Shown: one piece after another, positions 5,836 through 41,706 of the stretch
Position numbering within the stretch: position 1 is the first letter of the stretch
Layout of the letters: every line of letters begins with the position of its first letter
IMG/VR virus record: IMGVR_UViG_3300020202_000139
Location: 1 to 41,706 of that record
Reading direction: 5' to 3' (one strand)
DNA: 41,706 nt
DNA from: a virus
The notes under the pieces: generated by a model
Database searches by the model: none
What the model was told of the DNA's origin: nothing
Seen by the model: only the letters and a program-made list of their open reading frames with translations
Program-made: the position numbers and the translations under genes

Positions 5836-5889
5836 TACGCGTATCGGACCCCCGGAGGGGCCCGGTGCTTGGGGCTGGCAGAGCCTTAG

Positions 5890-28186: not shown

Positions 28187-28575
28187 GCGTCGACCTGCTC
28201 GGACGCGATGCGCTCTAAGTTGCGAAGGCGAGCAGCCATCGCCTCGTTCTCGGCCTTGAGCTGTCGGTAGGATTTGCGTGCAGCCTTCGACCCCGGCTCG
28301 TTGGGCGAGTGAGCGGCGCAGAGTGGACCACTGGCCGGGTTGCCGCAGGGGCGCCACAGCGCCCGGCCTTGGAACTGGATGGCGACTACGCAGCCAGGGT
28401 TGCGCAGCAGCTCGATGTCGCGATCGGTGACCCAGTCTGCGAGTCTGGCGTTGCGCCTCTTGACGTCGTCCTCACTCAGCCTTTCCTCGACGGGCACCGC
28501 CGACCACAGGCGGAAGCGCCGAGGTACCTCGATCCATCCGTTGCCGAGGTCGCGAACGTCGGCGGGAAGCGCCAT
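28183..28575 (-). CDS. Hypothetical protein with Cys/His motif and coiled coil
   Basis: A 130-residue protein. The middle WRPCGNPASGPLCAAHSP has a C-x(n)-C-x-x-H pattern related to the HGGXP signature; the last 45 residues are a charged helix (SYRQLKAENEAMAARLRNLE). The N-terminal GNGWIEVPRRFRLWS is beta-like. Starts at ATG 28575 sharing one base with the upstream stop (TGATG). Function unknown. Confidence 0.65.
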   Translation of the reverse strand: MALPADVRDLGNGWIEVPRRFRLWSAVPVEERLSEDDVKRRNARLADWVTDRDIELLRNPGCVVAIQFQGRALWRPCGNPASGPLCAAHSPNEPGSKAARKSYRQLKAENEAMAARLRNLERIASEQVDA

Positions 28576-28910
28576 CACGCCACCTCCGCCCGGTCGATGA
28601 TGCGGGCCAGGACACACGCCTCGATCAGCTGGGCACGCACCAGGCGCCCCCGGGGCCCGTCCAAACCGTGGTTGACCAGGCACACACCGGTCGCCATGTC
28701 CTCGACGACCTGACGGACCGTGCGCCCATCCTTCGGGAACGACACCGTCGTGCGACCCGACATCGACACCGTCACCTCGGGCGCCGTGTTGTCGACCGTC
28801 CAGAACGGCCGGCCATAGAACGCCGGCACCGTGAGCCCCAACTCGCGGGCCCGGACACCGATCGTCCGCGCCGCCGCCTGAAACTTGAGAGCCGTGCACA
28901 CATCGCTCAC
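28575..28910 (-). CDS. Hypothetical protein next to the Sak4-like gene
   Basis: A 111-residue protein from GTG 28910 (GTGA overlap with the Sak4-like stop). ALKFQAAARTIGVRARELGL, VPAFYGRPFWTVDNTAPEVT is a beginning often seen in actinophage hypothetical proteins; the remainder has TVSMSGRTTVSFPKDGRTVR and a helical end. No function assigned. Confidence 0.62.
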   Translation of the reverse strand: MSDVCTALKFQAAARTIGVRARELGLTVPAFYGRPFWTVDNTAPEVTVSMSGRTTVSFPKDGRTVRQVVEDMATGVCLVNHGLDGPRGRLVRAQLIEACVLARIIDRAEVA

Positions 28911-30202: not shown

Positions 30203-30411
30203 CGTTCGATCCCCTCTAGGTCGTTGCGGGCGCGGGCTCGGTCGAGCGCGTCGCGGTCGGTGATGTCCATGAACTCGTCCGGGTTGCACCACCGGCACTC
30301 GATGTACGTGTCGACGACCCATTCGCCGACGGTGTCGCGGCCCGCTTCGATGTGCTCCACCGCCGGGGCGTTGCATGTCGGGCACGTGATCTCGTGGACG
30401 GTGACGGTCAT
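30199..30411 (-). CDS. Zinc-ribbon protein, 70 residues
   Basis: A 70-residue protein: VHEITCPTCNAPAVEHIEAG, then a strand and YIECRWCNPDEFMD. Two CxxC pairs about 28 residues apart, a zinc ribbon. It stands between the Gam-like and Sak4-like genes, coupled by ATGA on both sides, so it may help DNA binding in the recombination module, but this is only position. Confidence 0.7.
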   Translation of the reverse strand: MTVTVHEITCPTCNAPAVEHIEAGRDTVGEWVVDTYIECRWCNPDEFMDITDRDALDRARARNDLEGIER

Positions 30412-30974
30412 GGCGTCACCTCCACCGTGAACTTGGGTGGGCGGTCACGGACCTCGACACCCGCCGCGACCTCGCCGAGCGGCGTAACCACCTCACCGTC
30501 AACGGGCTTGAGGAACTTCTTCGCGGCGGTCTTGTCGATCTCCGGCGGCGGCGGCGGTTTCACGCGCACAAACTCCGGCGCGTTCACTTCCGCCCACTCC
30601 ATGAACGTCGGCTCGTCGAACACCCACTCGGGCTGCTGCGCCCGCGCCTTCAACGTCCCGTTCGGGAAGCTCACCGTCTTCTCTTTCGGTGAACGTTCCA
30701 ACAGGCCGGCGTGCCACGCCGCGAGCGACCGTTCAAACCAGTCGATCTGGCCTTGGATGCGGGCCTCGTGACGTTCGACCCATTCGTCGATGCGTTGCCG
30801 TTCGGCGGCGGCCACCTCGTGCACGTTGTCGAGTTCGCGGCGCAGGCGGCGCAGATGCCGCAGCATCCGGTCGACACCGTCGGTGTGTTCCGGTGCGAGC
30901 GGTTCGCTGTTGTAGTCCGGTTCGCTGCCGGCCAGGTCGGCGTCGAGGTCATGGTGCAGGTCGGCGAGGCTCAT
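30408..30974 (-). CDS. Gam-like nuclease inhibitor (Mu Gam-like)
   Basis: A 188-residue protein. The helical part RMLRHLRRLRRELDNVHEVA, ERQRIDEWVERHEARIQGQI, DWFERSLAAWHAGLLERS, then VSFPNGTLKARAQQPEWVF is the Mu Gam/host-nuclease-inhibitor pattern: long helices with a beta-hairpin before a conserved W. Mu Gam coats double-stranded ends and blocks exonucleases, so it would protect linear DNA during recombination with the Sak4-like ATPase next door. The last 50 residues are acidic. Coupled to neighbours by ATGA. Confidence 0.82.
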   Translation of the reverse strand: MSLADLHHDLDADLAGSEPDYNSEPLAPEHTDGVDRMLRHLRRLRRELDNVHEVAAAERQRIDEWVERHEARIQGQIDWFERSLAAWHAGLLERSPKEKTVSFPNGTLKARAQQPEWVFDEPTFMEWAEVNAPEFVRVKPPPPPEIDKTAAKKFLKPVDGEVVTPLGEVAAGVEVRDRPPKFTVEVTP

Positions 30975-31174
30975 GTCGTTCTCCGTTCCGGTAGGCGGCC
31001 ACCGGCCGCCAGGTACTCGTCACGAGTTAGGAACTGGGGCCACGGCGCGTTGCGCGACACGAACCCGTGGCGCCGGTCGTTCACGGCCGCGTGCACAGCG
31101 GCTTCGTCGCGGGCCTCGACCCACATGAGCTGGCCCTCATGCCGCACGTAGAACATGCGCAACCCGCCCATCAC
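30971..31174 (-). CDS. Small hypothetical protein, 67 residues
   Basis: A 67-residue protein (MMGGLRMFYVRHEGQLMWVE, then AAVNDRRHGFVSRNAPWPQF, LTRDEYLAAGGRLPER). Beta-alpha-beta-like, basic. Starts at 31174 with ATGA or the adjacent ATG 31171. No family recognised. Confidence 0.6.
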   Translation of the reverse strand: MMGGLRMFYVRHEGQLMWVEARDEAAVHAAVNDRRHGFVSRNAPWPQFLTRDEYLAAGGRLPERRTT

Positions 31175-31785
31175 GACACCGCCCCGTCGACAACGTCACG
31201 GCCTACCGAGTGCGCCAAGTCGATGATCCACTGGCGGGCGCCTTCGATCCGTTCCGTTTCCTCGTGCTGCCGCCTGATGGCGTTGGCGAGGTTCCGGTGC
31301 AGTCGCTCCATTCGCTCGGCTTTGAACTGGGCCGCCGGCACGCGGTCGGGAACAGGCCAGTCGGACAGCTCCCATAGTGAGGAGCGCAACTGTTCGAGCA
31401 TGAACGCTTTGAGGTTCTCGTGGTCCTCAGTTGGTGGGTTCCACGCTTCGACCTTGGCGATCATCGCTTGCAGCGCTGCGTTCTCTTGGGCATACCGGTC
31501 GGCGCTTTCCTCGCGCTGTCGGTAGAGCCGTCCACGCTCAGCCGCCTCGGCTCTGTCGGCAGCCTCAAGCGACCACGCCTCGACCTCGGCCAATTCCTGA
31601 CGCAACCGGTCGATCTCCCGGTCGTTGTATGTGGTCGAACGTTCAGGGAGCCGGATCGGGGCGTTAGGCGCTTCGTCGCGCTGCTGGATGCACGCACCGA
31701 ACGCACGGGCGCACGACAGCACGAAGTCGGCTAGCTCGGTGACCTCGCCGGCCACGACGGGGTGCGTGTATCCGGTAGCCATCAC
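31171..31785 (-). CDS. Long coiled-coil early protein
   Basis: A 204-residue protein. The N-terminus GYTHPVVAGEVTELADFVLS is short and beta/helix-like; residues 50-190 are almost all charged helix (DREIDRLRQELAEVEAWSLE, RLHRNLANAIRRQHEETERI). The middle has ENLKAFMLEQLRSSLWELS. A coiled-coil dimer or scaffold is likely; no specific function is seen. Starts at 31785. Confidence 0.65.
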   Translation of the reverse strand: MMATGYTHPVVAGEVTELADFVLSCARAFGACIQQRDEAPNAPIRLPERSTTYNDREIDRLRQELAEVEAWSLEAADRAEAAERGRLYRQREESADRYAQENAALQAMIAKVEAWNPPTEDHENLKAFMLEQLRSSLWELSDWPVPDRVPAAQFKAERMERLHRNLANAIRRQHEETERIEGARQWIIDLAHSVGRDVVDGAVS

Positions 31786-32249
31786 GACACCGCCCGGCGC
31801 CGTGCCTGCGAACGCCGCTTGATGCGCTCCGGGCGAATCGACCGCAACCCCGCCCGCCCATGCGGACCGCCGTACACCTCGACGTACTCGACACGGCCAT
31901 TCACCGTTTTCGCGAACCGGAACGTCGCCTCGAACCCGTCACGACGCCCCGGCCGCGACGGCGACACGAACACGACGTCACCCTCACGAATCATGTTCCG
32001 GCCGCCCTGCGGATCCCGGATCTCGTTCACCCGCGCGACCACCGCCCGATCCTCGCGGCGCTGCTGCGCCGTCGGGCCGGTCACCTTCACCAGATGCGGG
32101 TTCGACGGGATCACGTGGCCGCGGTGCCGGCAGTCATGGCACAACGGACCCGACAGGTCCCGGCGATGCGGGCGGCCACACCGCTCACACGCCGCCGCGA
32201 GCACACACGACTCGGACGCCGCGCACACCGCATGACCACACGCGCTCAC
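31782..32249 (-). CDS. Cys-rich protein with SH3-like C-terminus
   Basis: A 155-residue protein from GTG 32249 (GTGA overlap). Residues 4-45 have seven cysteines and several histidines (CGHAVCAASESCVLAAACER, CGRPHRRDLSGPLCHDCRHR), probably two zinc fingers. The C-terminal part (MIREGDVVFVSPSRPGRRDG) is a beta-rich SH3/KOW-type sequence with basic tail. Nucleic-acid binding is plausible; family unknown. Confidence 0.65.
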   Translation of the reverse strand: MSACGHAVCAASESCVLAAACERCGRPHRRDLSGPLCHDCRHRGHVIPSNPHLVKVTGPTAQQRREDRAVVARVNEIRDPQGGRNMIREGDVVFVSPSRPGRRDGFEATFRFAKTVNGRVEYVEVYGGPHGRAGLRSIRPERIKRRSQARRRAVS

Positions 32250-32605
32250 AGCTCCTCGCCTTCCTGCTCTGCGTCGGCGTCGATCGCCCGCTGCAACACA
32301 TCGGTGATCGTGAACGGCGTGAACGTCGACTCGCCGGCCAGATCCCGGTCGCAACACGCTCGCAGCGCGAGCCCACCGAACGTGCGGTCCATCTGGACCC
32401 AACGGGCGCCCTTGTCGACGATCGGCAACACGTCGAGGTCGTCGACGAACTCGGCGACCGCCTGCGGCGTTTCCAGCCACACCGTCTCGAACTTCGGGAC
32501 CGGCACCCCGGGGTGCGCCGTCAAGAAATCGGCGAGCAGGCACAGGCCGTGGATCTGATCGAGACGCTGCAACGTCTCAGGGGATGGTGACGTGGTAGCA
32601 GACAT
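32246..32605 (-). CDS. Hypothetical early protein, 119 residues
   Basis: A 119-residue protein from ATG 32605 (AGGAGA lies 11 bases upstream, and a 7-bp plus 5-bp hairpin precedes it at 32633-32675). Sequence: LQRLDQIHGLCLLADFLTAH, PKFETVWLETPQAVAEFVDD, then GGLALRACCDRDLAGES. Helical and acidic. No known family. Confidence 0.62.
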   Translation of the reverse strand: MSATTSPSPETLQRLDQIHGLCLLADFLTAHPGVPVPKFETVWLETPQAVAEFVDDLDVLPIVDKGARWVQMDRTFGGLALRACCDRDLAGESTFTPFTITDVLQRAIDADAEQEGEEL

Positions 32606-32632
32606 GTGTACGCTGTCTCCTGTTGTTGAGGT

Positions 32633-32675
32633 GAAGCGGTCGCCCTTTCCCGGCAAGGACGGGGGCGGCCGCTTC
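32633..32675 (-). terminator. Leader hairpin before the 119-residue gene
   Basis: GAAGCGG (32633-32639) pairs with CCGCTTC (32669-32675), and CGCCC with GGGCG inside, giving 12 pairs with one mismatch around a 17-base loop. No T-run follows on the minus strand, so this may be a leader structure or processing site rather than a terminator. Confidence 0.4.
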
Positions 32676-32680
32676 GCTGT

Positions 32681-33016
32681 TTAAGGGTTGGTGCGATGAG
32701 ACCGATCAGGCACGGCCCACCGATTCGAACGGTGAGCGCCGGCACGCGAACACGTGAAGGCCATCTCGCAGGGAGGGCCGGCTTGGACTGCCCCGGGGTA
32801 GGGCGCCTGATCGGACAACTGACGGCAAACAATGCGGCCCACCTGGGCGCAATCCGCCGCACGATCCTCGGCACGCATGTCACGCACCTCCACCACCAGC
32901 CACACCAACCACACCGCCACAACAACGACACCGAACACGGCCGGCCAGTCATCACGCGCCAACCACACAACCAAGCTGACCGCGACCACGACCCGCAGAA
33001 AAGCGAGCGGCCTCAT
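32681..33016 (-). CDS. Membrane protein, 111 residues
   Basis: Two hydrophobic segments, about residues 3-20 (PLAFLRVVVAVSLVVWLA) and 25-43 (AVFGVVVVAVWLVWLVV), then a charged-cysteine stretch (EDRAADCAQVGRIVC). The C-terminal half (from about residue 60) is encoded by a strongly structured DNA stretch (32702-32814) and may not be needed. The start at 33016 is fixed by the ATGA with the HTH_17 gene. Function unknown. Confidence 0.6.
   Translation of the reverse strand: MRPLAFLRVVVAVSLVVWLARDDWPAVFGVVVVAVWLVWLVVEVRDMRAEDRAADCAQVGRIVCRQLSDQAPYPGAVQAGPPCEMAFTCSRAGAHRSNRWAVPDRSHRTNP
32702..32814. repeat. Perfect 10-base inverted repeat closing a multi-branched fold
   Basis: CCGATCAGGC (32702-32711) and GCCTGATCGG (32805-32814) are perfect inverted repeats. 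Read on the minus strand they enclose a 6-bp GCCGGC stem with a CACG/CGTG hairpin inside, and a T-arm-like CACCG-TTCGAAT-CGGTG. It looks like a tRNA-like RNA, but no acceptor stem or proper anticodon arm can be completed. It lies in the 3' half of the membrane-protein frame. Confidence 0.4.
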
Positions 33017-33240
33017 GACGCACGCTCCTGGGTGAAGGTCTCGCCGGCGATCGCCCGCTCAAACGCGACACGGCCGATGACCTTGCGGCGACCGATCACG
33101 AGCACCGGCAACGGGAACGTCCCCGCCTTGACCTGATCGGCGACCGTGCGTCGCGAGATCCCGAGACGCTCCGCCACGTACGCCAAGTCGTAGAAGTCCG
33201 GGTCGTCGTGCGGGTCGGTGTGATCGATGATCCCGGTCAT
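33013..33240 (-). CDS. HTH_17 / excisionase-like protein
   Basis: A 75-residue protein. DLAYVAERLGISRRTVADQV, KAGTFPLPVLVIGRRKVIGR and VAFERAIAG are the complete HTH_17 pattern (helix-turn-helix then a beta-hairpin), typical of excisionases and prophage regulators. It is the third gene of the early operon, so it is a good excisionase candidate to pair with the integrase at 35450; the 74-residue protein at 22522 is the other. Confidence 0.72.
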   Translation of the reverse strand: MTGIIDHTDPHDDPDFYDLAYVAERLGISRRTVADQVKAGTFPLPVLVIGRRKVIGRVAFERAIAGETFTQERAS

Positions 33241-33461
33241 GATGACGACACCAGCGCTTCGTCGTGTTCGAGGATCAGGGCGACGAGTTGACGGCACGCC
33301 GGTGACGGTTCCTGCTCGCCGGCCTGCTTCGCGATCCAACGCCAGTCCGTGTCGCCGAGGTTCTCGACGACGTGGCTCAACGGACCGACAGCGGTCCCAT
33401 GAGCCCGCAGGAACGACGCGAGACGCTCCGCCTTGCGGAAGCGGTTGCGGATCTCGCTCAT
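33237..33461 (-). CDS. Small early protein, 74 residues
   Basis: A 74-residue protein: MSEIRNRFRKAERLASFLRA, then SHVVENLGDTDWRWIAKQAG and ALILEHDEALVSSS. Helical, basic at the start and acidic at the end. It lies directly after the Cro-like gene and is coupled by ATGA. No family recognised. Confidence 0.6.
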   Translation of the reverse strand: MSEIRNRFRKAERLASFLRAHGTAVGPLSHVVENLGDTDWRWIAKQAGEQEPSPACRQLVALILEHDEALVSSS

Positions 33462-33688
33462 ACCGCTTCCTCCGCTGGAAACAGGAAGCGGCGCGATGTG
33501 CCTAACTCATCGGCTAGCAGTTGCTGGGTCGTCGGTGTCGGGGTCCATGTGTCGGACTCCCACTGAGCGACGGCGGGTTGGGTGACGAAGACCCGGCGGG
33601 CAAGCGTCTCCTGCGTCATCCCCTTCGCCTTGCGGAGAAGGCGGATGCGCTGGCCCGGTGTATTGACCTGGACGTCGGCGCTCCCCAT
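33458..33688 (-). CDS. Cro-like HTH repressor
   Basis: A 76-residue protein with an HTH_3 domain: TPGQRIRLLRKAKGMTQETL, ARRVFVTQPAVAQWESDTW, TPTTQQLLADELGTS. It heads the leftward early operon opposite the CI-like gene, as Cro does. Its promoter starts nearly at the ATG (33688), so it may be leaderless, and its operator overlaps that promoter. Likely blocks CI-type transcription and tunes early genes. Confidence 0.8.
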   Translation of the reverse strand: MGSADVQVNTPGQRIRLLRKAKGMTQETLARRVFVTQPAVAQWESDTWTPTPTTQQLLADELGTSRRFLFPAEEAV

Positions 33689-33696
33689 AAGGAGAG

Positions 33697-33725
33697 ACTA
33701 TTGCAGGATTCCTTGTCGTGGTCAA
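33697..33725 (-). promoter_or_regulatory. Early leftward promoter of the Cro-like gene
   Basis: Minus-strand TTGACC (33725-33720), 17-base spacer, AATAGT (33702-33697). The -10 ends 9 bases before the ATG at 33688, so the RNA begins 0-2 bases from the start codon. The operators at 33705 and 33724 lie in the spacer and over the -35. Confidence 0.65.
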
Positions 33726-33734
33726 GGACTCCTT
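33705..33734. promoter_or_regulatory. Twin operator sites between cro- and cI-like genes
   Basis: AGGATTCCT (33705-33713) and AAGGACTCCTT (33724-33734) are two odd palindromes whose centres are 20 bases apart, two helical turns. The whole stretch TTGCAGGATTCCTTG...CAAGGACTCCTTGCAA is also an imperfect inverted repeat. A further palindrome ACACAGGTGT is at 33748-33757. These are the expected CI/Cro binding sites. Confidence 0.65.
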
Positions 33735-33816
33735 GCAAATCTTCTGGACACAGGTGTAGTTACAACCCTTATGTGAACTTATATTCGCAGTTCAGATATC
33801 CTTTAAGCTGCTTGTC

Positions 33817-34242
33817 GTGGCACGGCTCACCACTCCCGAGCAGCGGGAGGCGTTCGGGGCGGCACTGGAGCGGCAGGTGCGATCATCAGGGATCGCACGT
33901 GCTGAATTGGCTGCACGCGTCGCTGAGATGGAAGGACGGGGCGACCGTCCACACTCTGCGACGCAGGTCGGCGCGTGGATCAAGGGTGAGAACATCTCTG
34001 ACCCCATCCGCGTGATCAACATAGAGCGAGCGCTCTCGGACATGCTTGAGGCGGCCGGCGAAGAGCGGCTGAAGCCAGGGGCGCTCACGCTACGGCTTGG
34101 CTTCCTGCCCCCCGATGCCGTCCCCGTCATGTCCGTCGAAGAAGCGATCGCGGCCGACGTCGACCTCGATGTCGCCGATCGATCCTATTTGCTGTCTGCC
34201 TACAGGCACGCGGCGCAGCGCGGTCGTCAGGACAGCGTGTGA
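33817..34242 (+). CDS. CI-like immunity repressor
   Basis: A 141-residue protein from GTG 33817. Helix-turn-helix at about residues 15-60 (EAFGAALERQVRSSGIARAE, LAARVAEMEG, HSATQVGAWIKGENIS) followed by NIERALSDMLEAAGEERL and an acidic dimerisation-type tail (VMSVEEAIAADVDLDVADR). Divergent to a Cro-like gene with shared operators, so most likely the lysogeny repressor. A weak promoter with TATCCT near 33797 would make the message nearly leaderless. The protein lacks a peptidase domain, so it is not LexA-like. Confidence 0.72.
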   Translation: MARLTTPEQREAFGAALERQVRSSGIARAELAARVAEMEGRGDRPHSATQVGAWIKGENISDPIRVINIERALSDMLEAAGEERLKPGALTLRLGFLPPDAVPVMSVEEAIAADVDLDVADRSYLLSAYRHAAQRGRQDSV

Positions 34243-34341
34243 CATGCCGATCGCCGAGACCAGCGCGTCGCGCTCACGTTCCAGCTCGGCCACCCTCGCA
34301 CGCATCCGCTCCATTTCGTGCTCCACCGCACGCTCCTTCAT
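34090..34341 (-). CDS. Possible antisense coiled-coil gene
   Basis: An 83-codon minus-strand frame. The first 45 residues (MKERAVEHEMERMRARVAEL, ERERDALVSAIGM) are a convincing coiled coil, but the remainder is antisense to the CI-like gene and there is no clear ribosome site. It may be a fortuitous frame. Confidence 0.25.
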   Translation of the reverse strand: MKERAVEHEMERMRARVAELERERDALVSAIGMSHAVLTTALRRVPVGRQQIGSIGDIEVDVGRDRFFDGHDGDGIGGQEAKP

Positions 34342-34509
34342 TCGATCCGCCCGGGTCTACTGCTACCACGCGGCTCGGTCGAGCGGTTCGGCCTACGCGG
34401 GATCTTCACAACTGAATCCTATCCATCCCCTACGACAACGAACCGAACGCAAGTTCGACCATCCACCACTCGCAGCAATGCAGGTGGTATCGGCACAAGG
34501 AGCGGACTC
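34243..34509. other. Gap between repressor and lipoprotein genes
   Basis: About 270 bases without a supported gene. It includes the first half of the possible antisense frame and, from 34395, sequence less rich in GC than the neighbours. Two small inverted repeats (CGAAC/GTTCG near 34450 and CCACC/GGTGG at 34462-34487) are present. No clear promoter or terminator was recognised. Confidence 0.4.
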
Positions 34510-34932
34510 ATGAGACGATTCGTAATCGCCCTGGTGGGACTGGCCGTTACGGCATGCGCTGGCGGCACCACAGCAGCCACCAGCGACACGACGCAGCCGC
34601 TCGCTGACACGCCGCAGGAGATCTCGGCCTACTGCCAAGTGTACGACGAGACTTCGCCGACGATCGCGAGGCTGATGCGCACCAACCCGAAGGGCCTCTC
34701 GTTCGACGAGGCGCAGGAAGCCATCGACGATCTCAACGCAGCGATCCAGCAGCGCCTCGACGCTGCCCCACCGTCGATCAAGCCGGCGTGGCGAACCTAC
34801 AAGGCGAAGCTCGACAGCCCCAAGGCATTGGAGGACGAACCGCTCAGCGAGCAGAAGAAGTACGCGGACGCGGTGGAGAGCATCAACCGGTTCGCCGAGT
34901 TCAAGTGCAAGCTTCCCGGCGACGTGAAGTAG
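34510..34932 (+). CDS. Lipoprotein, probable superinfection exclusion
   Basis: A 140-residue protein with ribosome site AAGGAGCGGACTC before ATG. Signal peptide MRRFVIALVGLAVTAC with a lipobox (VTAC, Cys16), then a Gly/Thr-rich linker and a helical domain (ISAYCQVYDETSPTIARLMR, ALEDEPLSEQKKYADAVE). It would be anchored on the outer face of the cell membrane. Lipoproteins next to the repressor are typical prophage-expressed exclusion factors, so this is the guess; no homolog named. Confidence 0.75.
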   Translation: MRRFVIALVGLAVTACAGGTTAATSDTTQPLADTPQEISAYCQVYDETSPTIARLMRTNPKGLSFDEAQEAIDDLNAAIQQRLDAAPPSIKPAWRTYKAKLDSPKALEDEPLSEQKKYADAVESINRFAEFKCKLPGDVK

Positions 34933-34938
34933 GTCGAG

Positions 34939-35187
34939 ATGGAACCGATGAAGGTGTGCCCGCAGTGTGCCGAGTGGGTGAAGGCCGACGCCAAACGTTG
35001 CCGGTACTGCGGGCACGAGTTGGTCACGAGCCCCGCGACAGTGATCAAGGTGGTGGCCGGCGTGGTGCTTGGCCTGATCCTGGCGGGAGTGGTCTTCGCG
35101 TGGTGGTCCGAGCAGCAGCGCCAGTCGGGTCGACGCCGGGCGAGCGAGATCATCGAGTGCATTAACGAAGGTCGCGAGCCTTGCTGA
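34939..35187 (+). CDS. Zinc-ribbon membrane protein
   Basis: An 82-residue protein. KVCPQCAEWVKADAKRCRYC is a standard N-terminal zinc ribbon, followed by GHELVTSPATVIKVVAGVVL and one membrane helix (about residues 36-55), then a basic stretch (EQQRQSGRRRASE). Follows the lipoprotein by 6 bases and probably shares its transcript. Zinc-ribbon-TM proteins of this type accompany prophage immunity regions; function unknown. Confidence 0.75.
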   Translation: MEPMKVCPQCAEWVKADAKRCRYCGHELVTSPATVIKVVAGVVLGLILAGVVFAWWSEQQRQSGRRRASEIIECINEGREPC

Positions 35188-35202
35188 CGCCCGACTTTGG
35201 CC

Positions 35203-35434
35203 ATCCCATGAGCTATCCCATGAAACAGCGCACGAATCCGCAAGGCATCCGCTGATGCTTGTTGTGAAACCGCAGGTCACAGCACTTTTCGGCATCGGCT
35301 CTCACCGTGTCTCCGTTAAGGCAGCGCTCTCTTAATCCGCAGGTTCTGGGTTCAAGTCCCAGGGGGCGTACTAGCAGGTCAGACGCTGGTTCCATGACCT
35401 ACCCAGCGGGGTGTCATCCCATGCGGATCCCATG
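35203..35434. other. attP: attP with core and paired arm-type sites
   Basis: The core 35329-35370 (CTCTTAATCCGCAGGTT, then CTGGGTTCAAGTCCCAG and GGGGCGTA) is the 3' end of a tRNA-Lys(CUU), from the anticodon loop through T-arm and acceptor; the 5' half is not present. ATCCCATG occurs as close pairs on both sides: 35203 and 35215 to the left, 35416 and 35427 to the right. These are the arm sites expected for a tyrosine integrase. Both arms are intact, so the phage DNA here is not integrated. Confidence 0.82.
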
Positions 35435-35449
35435 GACTACGTTGGCCAA

Positions 35450-36598
35450 ATGCAGGGAAGCATGCGGGAACGCACCCCCGGAGTGTGGGAACTACGGGTT
35501 TCGCTCGGCAACGACCCAGTCACCGGCAAGCTCCGCCAACGGTCGGTCACGTTCCGGGGCAAGAAACGTGCCGCGCAAACCGAGCTGAACCGGCTCGTCG
35601 CCATCACCGCAGACGCACGCGCCCCCGACACGGAGTCCACGGTGCGGCACCTGCTCGCCGAGTGGATCGATCACGCCGAACGGGACCTGTCCCCCACCAC
35701 GGCACGCGAGTACCGCCGCATCATCGACATGCGACTCGTGCCCGAACTGGGGCACCTGCGCATGCGGGACGTCACCCCCCGCCTCGTCGACGACCTGTAC
35801 CGCCGCCTCGGCCAACCCAAACCTAAGGGCGCTGGCCTGTCCCCAGCGTCGGTGATGCGGGTGCACGCCGTGCTGCGCCGCGCGTTCAACCAGGCGGTCC
35901 GCTGGGGATGGATCGAGAACAGCCCGATCGGCCGGGCCACCCCGCCCCGTCAGATCAAGGCTGAGGTCGAACCGCCCGCCGTCGAGGATCTGTGGCGCAT
36001 CATCGACCGGGCACGCGAGGAGGACCCCGCGCTGGCGCTCCTGTTCCTCGTCGCGGCCGGGATCGGTGCGCGTCGCAGCGAGTTGCTCGGGCTGCGCTGG
36101 CGCGACGTCGACGTCGAACGCGGCGAAGTGCGGATCTCTCGGGGTGTTGTTGATGTGGCCGGCCGGGTGATCGAGAAGGACACCAAGACACACGCCGCGC
36201 GCCGGGTCGAGTTGGATGCCATGACGACGGCGGCGCTGGCGGAGTTGCGGGTGATCGTCGAGGCGAACGCCGAGGCGGCGTCGGTGCGGCTCGGCCCGGC
36301 GGCGTTCGTGTTCTCCGGTGAGCCGTCATGCCGGAAGCCGTTGCGGCCCGAGCGTGTGTCGAAAGCGTTCGCCCGTATCCGTGACACGGTGGGCGCTGCG
36401 CCTACCGTCCGGCTTCACGATCTGCGGCACTTGTCGGCGAGCGTGATGCTGGCCGAGGGCGTGCAGATCACGGAGGTGTCGCGTCGGCTCGGTCACGCGA
36501 AAGTGAGCACGACTCTCGACTTCTACAGCCACCTGGTGCCCGGTCGGAAGGGCGATGGGCCCGCCGCGATCGAGCGGGGCTTGCGCCGGCCGGACTAG
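35450..36598 (+). CDS. int: Tyrosine integrase
   Basis: A 382-residue tyrosine recombinase. An AP2-like N-terminus (MRERTPGVWELRVSLG, RQRSVTFRGKKRAAQ), the SAM-like core-binding domain (residues 62-155) and the catalytic domain with R209 (GIGARRSELLGLRW), HDLRH (H323-R326), H349 (GHAKVSTTLDFY) and Tyr359. It would recombine attP with the host tRNA-Lys gene. ATG 35450 or 35462 is likely; starts at GTG 35411 and ATG 35432 fall within the arm sites. Its gene directly follows attP, as expected. Confidence 0.95.
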   Translation: MQGSMRERTPGVWELRVSLGNDPVTGKLRQRSVTFRGKKRAAQTELNRLVAITADARAPDTESTVRHLLAEWIDHAERDLSPTTAREYRRIIDMRLVPELGHLRMRDVTPRLVDDLYRRLGQPKPKGAGLSPASVMRVHAVLRRAFNQAVRWGWIENSPIGRATPPRQIKAEVEPPAVEDLWRIIDRAREEDPALALLFLVAAGIGARRSELLGLRWRDVDVERGEVRISRGVVDVAGRVIEKDTKTHAARRVELDAMTTAALAELRVIVEANAEAASVRLGPAAFVFSGEPSCRKPLRPERVSKAFARIRDTVGAAPTVRLHDLRHLSASVMLAEGVQITEVSRRLGHAKVSTTLDFYSHLVPGRKGDGPAAIERGLRRPD

Positions 36599-36810
36599 GT
36601 TTCGGTGAGTCTGGCGACGCGGGGCCCGGAGAGGCCGGCGGCGGCGCCGATGGCCCGTACGGGGACACCGCGGCGGCGTTCGCGGCGCATCAGCCGGTTG
36701 CGTTGCTGTTCGAGGTCGTCGAGCGCGGCGCGGTGCCGTTCGATGCGGCGGGCGAGTTTGGCGAGTTCGGCGGCGACGGCCGGGTTGATGGGTTCACCCA
36801 TGCGCGGCAT
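36595..36810 (-). CDS. Small HTH-like protein
   Basis: A 71-residue protein from ATG 36810 with a good ribosome site (AAGGAGAGGCA). A coiled-coil first half (ELAKLARRIERHRAALDDLE) and a C-terminal helix-turn-helix (RRGVPVRAIGAAAGLSGPRV, ARLTET). Convergent with integrase, stops overlapping by 4 bases. It is downstream of the Ser-type tRNA and an attenuator-like pair of hairpins, so it may be expressed from the tRNA promoter. DNA binding is likely; target unknown. Confidence 0.7.
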   Translation of the reverse strand: MPRMGEPINPAVAAELAKLARRIERHRAALDDLEQQRNRLMRRERRRGVPVRAIGAAAGLSGPRVARLTET

Positions 36811-36844
36811 TGCCTCTCCTTCGTCGGTGGGGCCTTGGTATGCT

Positions 36845-36902
36845 GGGGGCCTCGGTGAAGTTCAATCGTTTTGGTGAAGGCCCCCCGGCGACCTGGGGGG
36901 CC
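36845..36902 (-). terminator. Attenuator-like alternative hairpins after the tRNA
   Basis: Minus-strand GGCCCCCC/GGGGGGCC (36879-36902, 8 bp, loop 8) is a terminator-type hairpin after the tRNA. Its second arm can instead pair with AGGCCCCC at 36845-36852 (8 bp), so the two hairpins are mutually exclusive. Between them lies a near-copy (36851-36872) of the tRNA anticodon/variable-arm sequence. The HTH gene follows. Confidence 0.5.
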
Positions 36903-36911
36903 TTCTTCGTG

Positions 36912-36998
36912 CGGAGGGTGAGGGATTCGAACCCTCGGGACTCGGTGAAGTCCAATCGCTTTTCAGGCGATCCCGTTAGGCCGCTCCGGCAACCCTCC
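36912..36998 (-). tRNA. Serine-type tRNA with anticodon GAA
   Basis: An 87-base class II tRNA. Acceptor GGAGGGT/ACCCTCC, discriminator G73, D-arm CCG/CGG, anticodon arm ATCGC-CTGAAAA-GCGAT, long variable arm GGACT-TCACCG-AGTCC, and T-arm GAGGG-TTCGAAT-CCCTC, all perfectly paired. The long variable arm and G73 are serine identity elements read by SerRS, but the loop CTGAAAA carries anticodon GAA (36962-36964), which reads Phe codons UUC/UUU; the loop is identical to that of tRNA-Phe. No encoded CCA. Confidence 0.88.
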
Positions 36999-37008
36999 GA
37001 ACACAGAC

Positions 37009-37037
37009 ATCGTCTCACGTTTCCGACCGTTTGTCAA
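37009..37037 (-). promoter_or_regulatory. Promoter of the Ser-type tRNA
   Basis: Minus-strand TTGACA (37037-37032), 17 bases, then GACGAT (37014-37009), 10 bases before the tRNA 5' end at 36998. The -35 is perfect and the -10 weak. It faces the plus-strand promoter of the 37101 gene. Confidence 0.5.
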
Positions 37038-37073
37038 TGCCCGCAACAAACTTTCGTTGTTGGTATTGACAAA
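37030..37073. promoter_or_regulatory. Palindromic divergent promoter region
   Basis: TTTGTCAAT (37030-37038) and ATTGACAAA (37065-37073) are perfect 9-base inverted repeats, each containing the TTGACA -35 of one of two divergent promoters. Inside is CAACAA...TTGTTG. A regulator bound here could act on both the tRNA and the 37101 gene. Confidence 0.55.
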
Positions 37074-37094
37074 CTCCGGGGAAGGGTTCATAGT
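37066..37094 (+). promoter_or_regulatory. Promoter of the 37101 gene
   Basis: TTGACA (37066-37071), 17-base spacer, CATAGT (37089-37094), then GGAGAC and ATG at 37101. The transcript would start at about the start codon, again giving a nearly leaderless mRNA. The -10 is the same CATAGT as in the minus-strand phage promoters. Confidence 0.65.
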
Positions 37095-37100
37095 GGAGAC

Positions 37101-37403
37101 ATGAGCACGACGCACATCCCCACCGACATCACCGGCGCCGAGATGACGCTCCGCCAGTTCACCGCCCACATGCGCAACCGCATCAAGGTCGCCGGCATCA
37201 AGGCGCACGTGCGCGGCCAGGTCATCTGCGGCGACGAGCGCGTGTACGTCTCATCGGTCGCCTACGACATCGCCTTCACCGAAGACGAACAGCGCACGAT
37301 CCGCTCGATCGCCGTCGCCAACGGGTGCACGCTCGTGCAGGGAATGCCCATCGTCATCGAGCAGATGACCAACCCGCACGACTTCTTCTTCTACCGCCCA
37401 TGA
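37101..37403 (+). CDS. Hypothetical plus-strand protein, 100 residues
   Basis: A 100-residue protein, MSTTHIPTDITGAEMTLRQF, HMRNRIKVAGIKAHVRGQVI, then EDEQRTIRSIAVANGCTLVQ. Basic, alpha/beta. A strong promoter ends 6 bases before its ATG. The next gene begins only 14 bases beyond the stop. It may be expressed independently of late genes because it faces the opposite way; function unknown. Confidence 0.68.
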   Translation: MSTTHIPTDITGAEMTLRQFTAHMRNRIKVAGIKAHVRGQVICGDERVYVSSVAYDIAFTEDEQRTIRSIAVANGCTLVQGMPIVIEQMTNPHDFFFYRP

Positions 37404-37417
37404 CCGAGGAGGACACC

Positions 37418-37798
37418 ATGACCGAGCACACTCACGACACGGAGCCGATCTACGCTGACACCGTCTCGGTGGACTACGACAGCGCTTCAAACGAGTTGAT
37501 CATGCGCATCGTGCATGATCACAAACCGGGCAAGCCCTACACGACGACCGAGGTTCGAATTCCGGTTGACGCCGCCATCAAATTCGCCGGCCAGGTCGGC
37601 AACACGTTCACAGCCTTGATGAGACATGCACTTAGGCAGTCACGCATCGGCGACTGCCGCCGGTGCAACAACACTCGCCTAGTGCAGAACGACAAGAATG
37701 GTCGAAAGGTGAGCGAGCGCTGTCCCGAGTGCGGGAACCGGTTCGAGAATCTCCCGCCTGTCCCATCCGTTCGTTCGGCCGGGCCCCGCAAGCGTTAA
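37418..37798 (+). CDS. Zinc-ribbon hypothetical protein, plus strand
   Basis: A 126-residue protein from ATG 37418 with AGGAGG directly upstream; an ATG at 37400 overlapping the previous stop is possible. The N-terminal half is beta-rich (VSVDYDSASNELIMRIVHDH, TEVRIPVDAAIKFAGQVG); the C-terminal part has CRRCNNTRLV and CPECGNRFE, a zinc ribbon. Probably forms an operon with the preceding gene. Convergent with the lysis-region genes; stops overlap by 4 bases. Confidence 0.68.
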   Translation: MTEHTHDTEPIYADTVSVDYDSASNELIMRIVHDHKPGKPYTTTEVRIPVDAAIKFAGQVGNTFTALMRHALRQSRIGDCRRCNNTRLVQNDKNGRKVSERCPECGNRFENLPPVPSVRSAGPRKR

Positions 37799-38121
37799 CC
37801 GACTGAGGACAGCGGTTGGAGGTACGTGGACCCGCCGTGCACCGCGTCCCACGCGTCCCGCTGCGGGGTCCCCTTCTTATACGGGTTCGTCGTCCCCAAC
37901 GTCGCCAAGTACGTACTGTTCGTGCTATGCCGCTTGAGGTTGTACCTGTGCGAGCGCTGCTTCATCGTCTCCGGTTGAGCGAACGACGTCGACCCCTCAC
38001 ACCGCTCGGTGCGAGTCGCGACATGCATCCAGTCCGACCACCTGCCGTTACACGCCTCAATCGGGCGCATACACACACCGCAAAAGATCGCCTCCGTTTT
38101 GATGTCGAACGCGGTGCTCAC
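37795..38121 (-). CDS. Hypothetical protein at the end of the late operon
   Basis: A 108-residue protein from GTG 38121. FDIKTEAIFCGVCMRPIEAC has a CxxC...C cluster, followed by WSDWMHVATRTERCEG, a plausible zinc site; the remainder is polar (HRYNLKRHSTNSTYLATLG). It is the last gene of the lysis/tail transcript. No known family. Confidence 0.62.
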   Translation of the reverse strand: MSTAFDIKTEAIFCGVCMRPIEACNGRWSDWMHVATRTERCEGSTSFAQPETMKQRSHRYNLKRHSTNSTYLATLGTTNPYKKGTPQRDAWDAVHGGSTYLQPLSSVG

Positions 38122-38264
38122 GCCGCCGCCCTCCACCACCCGCGCAACCGCTCCGGCCACGGCACAACGCCCCGCAACGCGTCGTAGGCGTCGAACGCCA
38201 TACACGACACGAACCCGAACCCGACCAGGACCACCGCCCAACCCGCGACCGTTTCCGTTTTCAT
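38118..38264 (-). CDS. Small membrane protein after endolysin
   Basis: A 48-residue protein (MKTETVAGWAVVLVGFGFVS, CMAFDAYDALRGVVPWPER) with one membrane helix and a basic C-terminus. The start may be 38264 or 38282. The position behind an endolysin gene suits a second holin or lysis modulator, but a single helix alone does not prove it. Confidence 0.6.
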   Translation of the reverse strand: MKTETVAGWAVVLVGFGFVSCMAFDAYDALRGVVPWPERLRGWWRAAA

Positions 38265-38302
38265 GGTGACCGTCCGCCTCATGGTGCGATGAGGTCGGAC
38301 GG

Positions 38303-39088
38303 TCAGGCCGCCGCGAGAGGGCCGCCCACCTTCGGGTAGCGCTCCCACAGGAGATCGAGTGCATCATCACCGGCGGCAAGCAAACGCACCTTGGCGCCGA
38401 TCACCAACTGGTCACGGCCGTCAGGCTCAAACGACCAGAACCGGCCGGACCGGTCCGTTTGCAGCGAATAGATCGCCGGCTTGTCCGGGAACTTGACGAA
38501 CACCATGTCGGCGTCCTCCTCCTCGTTGAGCGGGGTCGGGTTGAGCGCCTGGCGGACCTCGTCGAGGAGCAGGAGCATCGGATAGTTCGCGCCCGGGTCG
38601 CTGCGCACATCACCGCCGAACGCCCGGTAACACTCGGCGTGCGTCGTGATCCCCGGTTCGCGGCGACGCAAACCGTCAGCCGGCACAAACCGGACCGGGA
38701 TCCGGTCGCGGCGGCACAGCGCAGCGACCAGCGGCGCGACCTGACCGCGCACCATGTCGAGGCTGTACCGGTCGTTCCACTCGCCCGCCGACTGGCCAGC
38801 AAACCCCGCCTGTTCGATGTGCCAGCCCTCGTCGTTCGCGCCGACCGCCGACGCGCCCCGCGTGTTCCAATCCATGCACCGGATCGTCGAGTTGTTGTCG
38901 CACACGAACTGTGTTGACGCGACACGGGAGCCGGGGTTGCGGAAGTAGTTGGCGCACGACTCGGCCGCTGACGGCGACTCGCCGATCTCGATCGTGTGAA
39001 GCACGATCCAGATGTGCGGGCCGCTGATCCGCCGGGCCCATTGGTCGCGGGCCGGCACGTACGGCAACGCCTCCAGGACGGCGATCAC
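38303..39088 (-). CDS. Endolysin, N-acetylmuramoyl-L-alanine amidase
   Basis: A 261-residue lysin. The N-terminal amidase_2/PGRP domain has zinc ligands His31 (IVLHTIE), His150 (GITTHAEC) and Asp164 (VRSDPGANYP), and the typical SRVASTQFVCDNNSTIRCM, WHIEQAG. It cuts the amide between MurNAc and L-Ala in peptidoglycan. The C-terminal 65 residues (VFVKFPDKPAIYSLQTDRSG) may be a cell-wall-binding module. The holin gene is next to it with ATGA, the standard lysis cassette. Confidence 0.9.
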   Translation of the reverse strand: MIAVLEALPYVPARDQWARRISGPHIWIVLHTIEIGESPSAAESCANYFRNPGSRVASTQFVCDNNSTIRCMDWNTRGASAVGANDEGWHIEQAGFAGQSAGEWNDRYSLDMVRGQVAPLVAALCRRDRIPVRFVPADGLRRREPGITTHAECYRAFGGDVRSDPGANYPMLLLLDEVRQALNPTPLNEEEDADMVFVKFPDKPAIYSLQTDRSGRFWSFEPDGRDQLVIGAKVRLLAAGDDALDLLWERYPKVGGPLAAA

Positions 39089-39441
39089 CGCTTCCTCAAG
39101 TTCGACTTGGAAGCGGCGACCGGGGCCGGCATCCCGGCGATCTGGTCGGCGCGGTCAGCCCGGTTGATCTTGTCGACGATCGCCTCGATGTCGTCGCCGT
39201 CTTTCGGGATCGGCTTGCGTAGACCGCGCACGATCTTGCGGCGCACTGTGGCGGGCGAATCGACTCGGCGGCGCACCCACCAGCCAGCGGCGGCGATCAG
39301 CGCGGCGACCGCGCCGAGGATGGCCTTGTACTGGTCGGGTGTGACCTCGATCCCGAACGCCTGGATGAGCGCCAACGTCGCGACGACGAGACCGGTGAGA
39401 ACAGCCGCGCCGGAGGCGACTGGCTCGTTCTTGATGTTCAT
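39085..39441 (-). CDS. Holin-like membrane protein
   Basis: A 118-residue protein with two hydrophobic segments, about residues 8-30 (ASGAAVLTGLVVATLALIQA) and 40-55 (YKAILGAVAALIAAAG), then a long basic cytoplasmic tail (WWVRRRVDSPATVRRKIVRG). FGIEVTPDQYKAILGAVAAL is found in several actinophage holins. Next to the endolysin and overlapping it by ATGA. A 9-bp hairpin ends directly at the ATG, which could delay expression. Confidence 0.78.
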   Translation of the reverse strand: MNIKNEPVASGAAVLTGLVVATLALIQAFGIEVTPDQYKAILGAVAALIAAAGWWVRRRVDSPATVRRKIVRGLRKPIPKDGDDIEAIVDKINRADRADQIAGMPAPVAASKSNLRKR

Positions 39442-39463
39442 GGCGACACCCCCCGGTGTCGCC
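39442..39463 (-). promoter_or_regulatory. Perfect hairpin abutting the holin start
   Basis: Minus strand GGCGACACC-GGGG-GGTGTCGCC, a perfect 9-bp stem with a 4-base G loop, ends right at the ATG at 39441. The only purine-rich ribosome site (GGAGG) is just before and inside the stem, so the fold would hide it. Probably a translation control for lysis timing. Confidence 0.65.
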
Positions 39464-39517
39464 TCCACGTGTTCGGCCGTCAACCGTAGGCGGCCACACA
39501 CGCCAGGTGGTGGATGG

Positions 39518-40690
39518 TCACGACTTGAACCCGCCCTCGGTGCGGCCCCGCACACCACGCAACTGAACCGCCGACGCCAACGACCGGATCGGGGCCCCGA
39601 CCTCCAGGGTCGCACCCGGCGACTCCCAATCCACATACGGGGTCAGATCGATCACCGCGGGCGACGACCCGTTCTTACGGAAGTACACACCCATCGGCAT
39701 TTCGAACGGCATCGTGATCGCCTGCACCCGCAACGTCATCGGCCGGATCAGCCGGCCCCGGAAATAGATCTCGGTCGTGACGTCATAAATGTTCTTGTCG
39801 GGGTGCCACGCGTACACACGGGCACCGCACGCGATCTTGTCCATCAACGCCCGCTGCTTCGACCGGACCGTGAGTTTCTGGTCGACCTGATCGAACCGGC
39901 CCAACTGTTGCGACGCCACCGTCGCGCCCGTGCCGGCAACAACGGTCGAGCTGCCATCGACGTAGCGTTTCCACACGTAGTCGGCGCCAAGCTGGTCTTG
40001 GAACGGGTTGCTACCGATCGTGGCGCCCTCGTATGTGCCGTCGTCCTCTTTGAGGAACACCCTGGTCGTGAAATCCTCGACCGTTTCGAGCAGGGTCATG
40101 TCCGCTTCGATCCCGGTGTACAAGATGTCTTGGCCGTCCATCCACGGGGTGAGCACCACCGACGGCGACCCGTACAAGTTGGCGGCCGTGTCCGCGTCGA
40201 GCGTCAGGTCGTCCTGAACGACCCATTCCATGCCGAAGTAGTCGCACACGTAGTCGATGGCGTCGCGGCGTGACTGGCCGGCTTTCCACGTCCAGTTCAG
40301 CGTCGACGCCGACGCCGAATACGAGCCGGTGGACAGCACCGACGCCGGCTTCAGGTGGTCCGTCAACCAGTTCGCGATGGTTTTCGTTTGGGTGACGTCA
40401 ACCTCGGGCAGCTGGCCTTTGCCGTCCTCGTCACCCAACAGCACAGAGGCGTGCGCCCCGGAGAACGAGGTGCGGGACTCCTGTTCGCGCATCACCCCGG
40501 TGAAGATCGACAGCGGCAGCAGGTTGGCGGCGGTGTCCAGCACATGCGACGGGACCGCGGCGGGTGTCACGATCACATGCCCGAACCCTTGCGTTCCGAT
40601 GGTCAGGTGATCGGTGATCGTCACGGGTGTGTCTTCGCGCAGGTTCAACTGGAAGGATCCCGGCGCCATCAGCCGTTTCGTTGCGGGCAT
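39518..40690 (-). CDS. gp37-like minor tail protein
   Basis: A 390-residue protein. Beta-rich segments such as FQLNLREDTPVTITDHLTIG, SASTLNWTWKAGQSRRDAID and GVYFRKNGSSPAVIDLTPYV are typical of the ReqiPepy6 gp37-like tail protein family of actinophage siphoviruses, usually located after the tape measure and distal tail protein. It probably forms part of the tail tip. The start at 40690 is 4 bases from the previous stop. Confidence 0.8.
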   Translation of the reverse strand: MPATKRLMAPGSFQLNLREDTPVTITDHLTIGTQGFGHVIVTPAAVPSHVLDTAANLLPLSIFTGVMREQESRTSFSGAHASVLLGDEDGKGQLPEVDVTQTKTIANWLTDHLKPASVLSTGSYSASASTLNWTWKAGQSRRDAIDYVCDYFGMEWVVQDDLTLDADTAANLYGSPSVVLTPWMDGQDILYTGIEADMTLLETVEDFTTRVFLKEDDGTYEGATIGSNPFQDQLGADYVWKRYVDGSSTVVAGTGATVASQQLGRFDQVDQKLTVRSKQRALMDKIACGARVYAWHPDKNIYDVTTEIYFRGRLIRPMTLRVQAITMPFEMPMGVYFRKNGSSPAVIDLTPYVDWESPGATLEVGAPIRSLASAVQLRGVRGRTEGGFKS

Positions 40691-40694
40691 CCGG

Positions 40695-41706
40695 TCACCT
40701 GCCGACGATGGTTTGGGCTTCGGTGTACGCCCCGAAATAGTCGTTCGACATTGCCGCCACCGTGAAGTCAGTAGCCGCCCCGGACCCGCCCCGCTCCAAA
40801 CCGAGAGCGAACGGCCACGATGTCGCCGCCGCGGTTTTCGTGAACGTCCCGTTCACCAGATCGTTCGATTTCGCTGACGGCGTGTACATCACGAACCGGT
40901 TCCCGGCCGCGTCGTTCGAAGTCGCCCGGATCCCACCGGTGATCGCTGTCGCAGCCTCGGCGGCGCTCACGCCAACCGAGCCCAGCACCGCGTCATCCGC
41001 GGTCCAATGGCACTCAGCCATCATCGACCCGCGCCGCAACGAGATATCAAGGTTCAAACGGTGGATCGCCGCCGCTGTGCCCGTGATGTTGTCCCCCATC
41101 GAGATCCGTGCGATGACTTCTTCGGGTGCGTTGCGAATGATCGAGAACGTCCCGAACCTGTCGATATCCGAACCGGCGTACGTTGTGCCGAACTTGAATG
41201 CTTTGGCGGTGTCCCACGCTGACCCGTCCCAACACGAAATGTCGATGCGGCCAGCAGTCGAGCTTGCGGTGATGCGGATCAGGTCGTTGGTGAGGCGCCA
41301 CACCACGGCCGACTGGTTCGACCAGATCTTCCGACCGATCGTCCGGTAGTAGGTGCTGTTCGCGTATTGGATTTCGATTCGTGCTGCACCGGTGTAGTAG
41401 TTGGCGGGGGACAGCGAAAACGAGGCGAGTTTGCGGGCCGCAGCGGACGTTGACCCGGACTGGTTCAGGCCCTTGAGCGTTCCCGATGACAGGCCGCGGG
41501 TCCGGTTGAAGTCCGTCACCCCGGAACTGATCGTGTTGTAGTAGTTGACGACGGTGGACGGCACCCAGTGGATCGGGACCGGGGTGATCGTGTGGCTGTT
41601 GGTGCGGAACCCGCCGATCAGCACCGATTCCATTGCGGGTAGCGCATAGTCGGGGATCCGTTCGAACTCCATGTCCCAGCGGAACCGGTTTTTGCCCCAG
41701 TCGCCG
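40695..41706 (-). CDS. Tail protein, 5' end beyond the window
   Basis: The frame is open to the right edge: GDWGKNRFRWDMEFERIPDY before the first internal ATG at 41672 reads as protein, so the true start is outside. The visible 337 codons are Ser/Thr/Asn/Gly-rich and beta-like (SFSLSPANYYTGAARIEIQY, MYTPSAKSNDLVNGTFTKTA), like tail fibre or tip proteins with jelly-roll, LamG-like folds (residues 90-200). It precedes the gp37-like gene, so a distal tail or receptor-binding part is plaus­ible. Confidence 0.75.
   Translation of the reverse strand, partial: GDWGKNRFRWDMEFERIPDYALPAMESVLIGGFRTNSHTITPVPIHWVPSTVVNYYNTISSGVTDFNRTRGLSSGTLKGLNQSGSTSAAARKLASFSLSPANYYTGAARIEIQYANSTYYRTIGRKIWSNQSAVVWRLTNDLIRITASSTAGRIDISCWDGSAWDTAKAFKFGTTYAGSDIDRFGTFSIIRNAPEEVIARISMGDNITGTAAAIHRLNLDISLRRGSMMAECHWTADDAVLGSVGVSAAEAATAITGGIRATSNDAAGNRFVMYTPSAKSNDLVNGTFTKTAAATSWPFALGLERGGSGAATDFTVAAMSNDYFGAYTEAQTIVGR

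Follow-up and report, generated by a model that had tools for sequence, protein, structure and literature searches.

A tRNA whose body and anticodon disagree, producing directed missense, is known from Streptomyces as tRNA-ProX/ProRSx (PMC10365949). The tRNA described here shares that disagreement; the two differ in that tRNA-ProX has a tRNA-Pro backbone and an adjacent ProRSx, whereas ours joins a Ser body to a Phe anticodon, is phage-borne and lies beside a putative antisense RNA. We found no dedicated synthetase among the neighbouring ORFs tested (int, HTH-like and small ORFs) in the window, by which we mean the whole stretch of DNA analysed, an IMG/VR virus record of 41,706 bases. Human tRNA-Ser(AAA), a G35A variant of Ser-AGA, likewise joins a Phe anticodon to a Ser body; it places Ser at Phe codons and has toxic effects (PMC9956149), but it is not a phage gene and has no antisense regulation.

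Among regulated toxins, the par/Fst type I toxin-antitoxin system of pAD1 produces convergent transcripts with a shared terminator, and direct repeats give the toxin and antitoxin RNAs their complementarity (PMC7472228). The window and a second phage (L003) also have a pair of direct repeats flanking a terminator-like hairpin; the par/Fst toxin, however, is a small hydrophobic peptide, whereas here the product in the toxin position is a tRNA and the convergent promoters are putative. Type VIII systems (CreTA, SdsR/RyeA; PMC12737573, PMC9424990) restrain an RNA toxin by an RNA, as we predict here from complementarity, but neither involves a missense tRNA: CreT acts by sequestering a tRNA, with Cascade mediating its repression, and SdsR and RyeA are overlapping sRNAs on opposite strands. 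In tRNA-dependent lysogeny, which also concerns temperate phages with an int and a tRNA gene, the phage tRNA is of the same isotype as the host tRNA that is disrupted, and attP and attB have only 8-17 bp in common (PMC10865867). A missense tRNA paired with an antisense RNA is not described in the literature searched, a coverage outside which most subscription journals fall.

Detection and identity of the GAA tRNA

ARAGORN detected two tRNAs in the window, both on the minus strand: tRNA-Met(CAT) at 5889-5962 and a tRNA with the anticodon GAA at 36911-36998. The latter is a Ser-type class II tRNA at 36912-36998 (anticodon 36964-36962, G73, no encoded CCA), so that the coordinates and strand given in the first-pass annotation are correct, as is its description of a clean fold with a long variable arm, G73 and the loop CTGAAAA. 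When checked by hand, the cloverleaf (GGAGGGT-TGCCGGAGCGGCCTAACGGG-ATCGC-CTGAAAA-GCGAT-TGGACTTCACCGAGTCCC-GAGGG-TTCGAAT-CCCTC-ACCCTCC-G) was perfect, with every helix closed (acceptor 7/7, anticodon 5/5, T 5/5, 6 bp in the 18-nt variable arm). With permissive filters (speed filter relaxed), Rfam RF00005 matched it at 53.0 bits (E 7e-11), a match absent under the default filters, and a class II GAA pattern gave one match in the window and none in 100 shuffles. The cloverleaf, the Rfam score and the shuffle result together establish the feature as real, and we consider it practically certain that the window carries a genuine, conserved and unusual Ser-type tRNA with a GAA anticodon.

The strong promoter of its own that had been claimed for this tRNA is only half there: a perfect TTGACA (37037-37032) is followed after 17 nt by a weak -10 box, GACGAT (37014-37009), and the consensus promoter scan of the window did not list the pair. 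We therefore annotate 37009-37037 (minus strand) as a putative tRNA promoter read from the letters. The scan did list a divergent plus strand promoter (TTGACA-17-CATAGT, 37066-37094). A 22-nt inverted repeat (82%, 37029-37074), found by repeat search, covers both divergent -35 boxes and is likely an operator at which a phage repressor would control the tRNA and the gene at 37101-37403.

The tRNA body was compared with 396 genomes of the Actinobacteria phylum, taking the isotype from the ARAGORN call at each match. The best matches retrieved were tRNA-Ser wherever ARAGORN called a tRNA. The nearest bacterial relatives were Ser CGA, UGA and GGA tRNAs at up to 80% identity (one at 80% over its full length), and in several Ser(CGA) genes the anticodon stem was identical by letter (GGGATCGCCTCGAAAGCGATTGG against GGGATCGCCTGAAAAGCGATTGG); a GAA anticodon appeared in none of the matches retrieved from these genomes. 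Bacterial tRNA-Ser is characterised by G73, G1-C72, G2-C71 and a long variable arm (PMC9976931). All of these are present in the GAA tRNA, and the earlier reading of a Ser body under a Phe anticodon thus holds. The resemblances of this tRNA to tRNA-Ser and of the attachment site (below) to tRNA-Lys suggest a host in the Actinobacteria, no finer.

A sequencing error in the loop (CTTGAAA, an ordinary Ser UGA tRNA), which the first-pass annotation had allowed for, is unlikely because GAA is retained in L003/L008 and in other phages. L003 and L008 are separate assemblies, from two metagenomes and 99% identical, of one phage unrelated to that of the window; relative to the window tRNA, two anticodon-stem pairs and one T-stem pair are altered on both sides, and the loop CTGAAAA is unchanged.

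Two DNA methyltransferases, one HhaI-like C5 and one of the amino-methyltransferase type, are encoded in the window on the minus strand (18245-19081 and 23963-24811). UUC stands at conserved Phe positions of both, in LFSG and GFPCQ (by comparison with HhaI) and in DPFMGSG (by comparison with amino-methyltransferases), and TTC is used 24 times per 1000 codons in the window phage. We accordingly rejected an altered genetic code in which UUC no longer means Phe, and with it the proposal of a recoding tRNA: since UUC is still Phe in the proteins of the phage, the tRNA would be a missense one.

SerRS does not read the anticodon. Together with the human tRNA-Ser precedent, this makes charging of the GAA tRNA with serine the expected outcome, and missense insertion of Ser at Phe codons would then be likely. 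A missense or toxin-like role is the best reading of this tRNA.

A second copy of a tRNA segment in the window and in L003

Three things had been overlooked by the earlier reader: a second copy of a tRNA segment, the nearby integrase with what is probably the true attP, and the recurrence of the arrangement in unrelated phages. Repeat searches located the copy at 36847-36872 (26 nt, 88%), where it repeats the 3' side of the anticodon stem and the variable arm. In both the window and L003 it sits on the tRNA strand, 40-60 nt past the tRNA and beyond a hairpin, so placed that the direct repeats lie on either side of the hairpin at a spacing of 90 (window) or 109 (L003). In the window, inverted-repeat search and folding of the plus strand gave an 11-bp perfect GC hairpin at 36876-36905, a candidate for the shared terminator of convergent transcripts; neither the window hairpin nor that of L003 has a clear U tract.

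A plus strand transcript of 36851-36872 (22 nt) would form a duplex with the tRNA made up of Watson-Crick and G.U pairs. The proposed antisense RNA would cover 36850-36910 (plus strand), with a complementary 5' part followed by the hairpin, and an extended -10-like TGGTATGCT lies ahead of it at 36836-36844. A consensus scan listed no antisense promoter in the window, L003 or the three further loci described below (L290, L305, L321). In L003, a 15-nt inverted repeat places tRNA-promoter-like sequence on the opposite strand beyond the copy, a suggestive hint of antisense transcription.

A small basic ORF of 71 amino acids with a weak HTH/HicB-like profile match (36595-36810, minus strand) follows the second copy, and cultured phages contain no homologue of it. 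L003/L008 have an HTH-like ORF of about 70 amino acids in the equivalent position, so that the order in L003 is tRNA, hairpin, a 31-nt copy (87%) of its own anticodon/variable segment, and the ORF.

The copies of the two phages differ, each agreeing with its own tRNA. Using 35-nt seeds, we obtained duplex energies with the own tRNA of -52 (window) and -50 kcal/mol (L003), against -28 and -30 kcal/mol for cross pairing, which is the level of shuffled sequences; tight seeds gave -41.8 and -48.9 for self pairing against -26.2 and -23.3 for cross pairing. Within the paired block (22 nt in the window, 20 nt in L003), all differences between tRNA and copy are G.U-compatible in the antisense:tRNA sense. 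When the variable-arm segment was tested across 451 distinct tRNAs with their flanks, more than 13/16 was found only in the window and L003. From this complementarity, we regard antisense control of the GAA tRNA by the predicted transcript as rather probable.

A second architecture with a copy of the acceptor end

By searching all tRNAs for a nearby copy we found L290 and L305, and an anticodon-blind pattern of the layout added L321. The L305 and L321 records seem to derive from isolates. This anticodon-blind search for the acceptor-copy layout returned these three loci only, all with GAA, and the layout was absent from 385 genomes of the class to which the genome of L186 (Labrenzia) belongs. 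The three carry Ser-type tRNAs ending in GCCA, and about 130 nt downstream the 3' acceptor strand and its CCA recur in a copy that follows the letters of each tRNA (ATACCCACCGCCAC, TTACCTACCGCCACC, TTACCCACCGCCACC). GAA is unchanged among them amid compensated stem changes. Cross pairing is about equal to self pairing in this group because the three loci are related. Their anticodon stems can be imperfect (two U.U in L290, one A.C in L321), and these two may be weak or decaying tRNAs. L290 and L305 are surrounded by tail-like genes, as read from the translations; such a place is a typical cargo position. We saw no HTH-like ORF beside the copy in L290-type loci.

Between tRNA and copy lies a 14-bp hairpin that forms a proper fold only when the opposite strand is read. 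All 42 of its 42 cells across the three loci are standard pairs on the antisense strand, where 11 are G.U and would be A.C on the other strand. Two double changes occur in this hairpin across the loci; taken by itself, covariation among three related sequences is weak (its level is reached by 53 of 500 shuffles), whereas the strand asymmetry is clear. A T tract follows the hairpin on the antisense strand (listed by the scan in L290 and L321, visible by eye in L305).

Occurrence in viral and cellular genomes

All four closing pairs were used in scanning 2.9 million viral contigs, and about twenty distinct class II GAA tRNAs were present among the matches listed, either as lone cargo in temperate phages of 35-45 kb or in large tRNA arrays. 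In 84,980 bacterial and archaeal genomes scanned with the C-G closing pair, only three clear candidates were found (L179, L195, L196). From these counts, the type is rare in cells and recurrent in phages. L195, on a bacterial contig of a Dehalococcoidia MAG, is a Ser-like GAA tRNA with A73 and a D arm near that of the window. The scan with the GCTGAAAAC closing pair yielded no true tRNA, and most class II matches to the first pattern were set aside as tRNA-Ser(UGA) with C33, not GAA; such tRNAs, with the loop CCTGAAA and C33 in place of the near-universal U33, occur in many viral contigs (for example L010, L036, L045, L059 and L086).

Complementary runs of at least 15 nt downstream of the tRNA were found for 4 of 21 class II GAA tRNAs and 12 of 536 others (Fisher p=0.002, to be taken as indicative since loci were gathered partly for being GAA); most of the 12 pair a T or D arm with other tRNA fragments. 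Class II GAA tRNAs without a second copy are L159, L294, L295/L309, L298, L107 and L100. In the provirus records of about 40 kb L294, L295 and L309, the copy-less Ser-like GAA tRNA stands alone in the middle of the prophage and has a poorly paired acceptor stem.

Cultured phages contained no similar DNA to window positions 28000-41706, the window tRNA region or the L003 tRNA region, and the matches listed for L305 in cultured phages were ordinary tRNA genes. An opposite-strand Rfam match to the plastid psbL-rps4 3'UTR fell below the gathering score and was set aside, probably reflecting resemblance to tRNA-Ser. Two further kinds of element were observed. At 1501-1591 of Pseudomonas phage inbricus (L322, MG018928), a 91-nt class II tRNA is annotated as tRNA-Arg(TCT), yet its body looks Ser-type (73.6% to the L305 tRNA); it is possibly a second isotype with a conflict of body and anticodon. 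In L084, L092 and L103, a tRNA-like element labelled tRNA-Phe(GAA) has a perfect anticodon hairpin of unusual length (CTCAAGACG-CCTGAAAAA-CGTCTTGAG in L103).

A proposed missense tRNA with antisense control, and the alternatives

The tRNA, its GAA anticodon and Ser body, second copies that vary together with their tRNAs and, in three phages, the terminator-like hairpin on the opposite strand can be read from the DNA; from these we infer the steps of charging, antisense transcription, toxicity and benefit to the phage. The phage would have captured a tRNA-Ser, most like the Ser-CGA/UGA of the host, and the anticodon loop of this tRNA would have become GAA. The anticodon-blind host SerRS would charge it with serine, and Ser would be inserted at UUC and UUU, giving missense and a toxicity in proportion to the level of the tRNA. 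Restraint would come from an antisense RNA transcribed off the strand opposite to the second copy. In the window and L003 this RNA would pair with the 3' strand of the anticodon stem and with the variable arm, so that both the anticodon stem and the arm recognised by SerRS are destroyed; in L290, L305 and L321 it would pair with the acceptor strand on the 3' side and with CCA, and the tRNA could then be neither charged nor matured. If the antisense RNA were lost or outrun, free tRNA would poison translation, and this might serve prophage maintenance, exclusion of rivals or a timed shut-down of the host.

We give a probability of about 0.5 to this reading, in which a missense tRNA restrained by an antisense RNA forms an RNA module of temperate phages. 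The par/Fst-like layout, with a tRNA replacing the toxin mRNA, makes an RNA toxin-antitoxin-like device the most likely function, and we propose a toxin-antitoxin role for the tRNA/antisense pair tentatively. More speculative still is a general RNA-only toxin-antitoxin class in temperate phages of several bacterial groups, with a missense tRNA as toxin and a partial-copy antisense RNA as antitoxin, which would have arisen at least twice (variable arm and acceptor end). If the module is real, mistranslation would be a phage-carried and regulated weapon or switch, missense tRNAs would join the short list of RNA toxins, and the pair would provide an example of an antisense RNA inactivating a tRNA. 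Annotation by anticodon alone hides such tRNAs, all of which are called tRNA-Phe. The signature (a class II body, the anticodon of a class I tRNA and a partial same-strand copy nearby) is searchable, can be used for other isotypes and makes the use of missense tRNAs by phages directly testable.

Missense without RNA control is the alternative that survives best, though we think it unlikely. Here a phage tRNA-Ser mutated to GAA would cause low-level mistranslation, for proteome diversity or host damage, and the copies would be decayed duplicates. A mistranslating bacterial tRNA-ProX is indeed known (PMC10365949), and copy-less class II GAA tRNAs exist (L159, L294, L295/L309, L298); the copies, however, keep step with their own tRNA across differing phages, are confined to one defined segment and, in three phages, adjoin a terminator-like hairpin on the opposite strand.

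An extra phage tRNA-Phe, charged by PheRS through GAA and supporting the decoding of UUC/UUU, is improbable. GAA is a major Phe determinant, PheRS mischarges a yeast tRNA-Tyr into which GAA has been placed (PMC9976931), and ARAGORN labels the window gene tRNA-Phe. Phe identity, however, requires A73 besides GAA, to which E. coli adds U20 and U59 (PMC9976931). Of these the window tRNA has G34, A35 and A36, but G73 in place of the strictly conserved A73 and, in its T loop TTCGAAT, A59 in place of U59, with the 18-nt variable arm where tRNA-Phe has a short variable loop. G73, not A73, is found in the window, L003, L290, L305 and L321, and these five copy-bearing members all retain G1-C72/G2-C71 with it; for a plain tRNA-Phe, moreover, an antisense RNA would be needless.

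The repeat could instead be a DNA operator bound by the small HTH protein, regulating its own gene and the tRNA gene, as the HTH-like ORF after the copy in the window and L003 and the presence of the 15-nt inverted repeat in both control regions of L003 might suggest. We judge this very improbable: the repeat within the tRNA falls in the transcribed body, the differences between copies preserve G.U pairing of RNA, and the L290 type, where we saw no ORF of this kind next to the copy, uses a different segment of the tRNA.

The decoy-like role also named in the first-pass annotation, here taken as protection from an anticodon nuclease of the host or another tRNA-targeting defence, would be in keeping with the proposal that phage tRNAs counter tRNA-degrading defences (PMC10865867). 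It is most improbable, since a decoy would be expected to retain the loop and body of its target and the Ser/Phe chimera does not.

Integrase and probable attachment site

A tyrosine integrase is encoded at 35411-36598 (plus strand; Pfam PF00589 6e-21, phrog_1 2e-65) and ends 300 bp from the GAA tRNA. Just upstream of int, the 43 bp at 35329-35371 (plus strand) match the 3' half of an actinobacterial tRNA-Lys(CTT) at every position, which makes them the probable attP. A tRNA 3' half upstream of int is the classical attP arrangement, restoring the host tRNA. The attachment site being a tRNA-Lys(CTT) half, the GAA tRNA is not one. We also rejected tRNA-dependent lysogeny for the window: the 43-bp match is to tRNA-Lys(CTT), in place of a core of only 8-17 bp, and the phage tRNA is a GAA one.

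A role in integration, with the tRNA and its partial copy as attP/attB remnants or the tRNA replacing a host tRNA lost on integration, is therefore as remote as the decoy. The proximity of the integrase in the window and the acceptor-end copies of L290, L305 and L321, which look like att repeats, speak for it, and a bacterial tRNA-Ser(UGA) (L234) has a similar 3' repeat. The tRNA-Lys half, however, would restore the host tRNA-Lys, and the distance between integrase and tRNA is roughly 10-35 kb in L003 (about 11 kb), L305, L321, L294 and L295, the integrase of the last four lying near a contig end with the tRNA well inside; on these positions the attP reading of the GAA tRNA was rejected for the proviruses as well. 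The copy in the window and L003 is, moreover, internal and not the 3' end of the tRNA. Old att repeats could account for the acceptor-end copies; the internal copies of the window and L003 and the antisense-strand hairpin would then still lack an explanation.

The L234 repeat is a 25-nt copy of the 3' end, 180 nt downstream, and resembles the att repeats of a tiny remnant element. Elsewhere in the window, 10633-12225 (minus strand) encodes a cytidylyltransferase of the CMP-sugar type fused to a glycosyltransferase domain, which may modify phage or host sugars.
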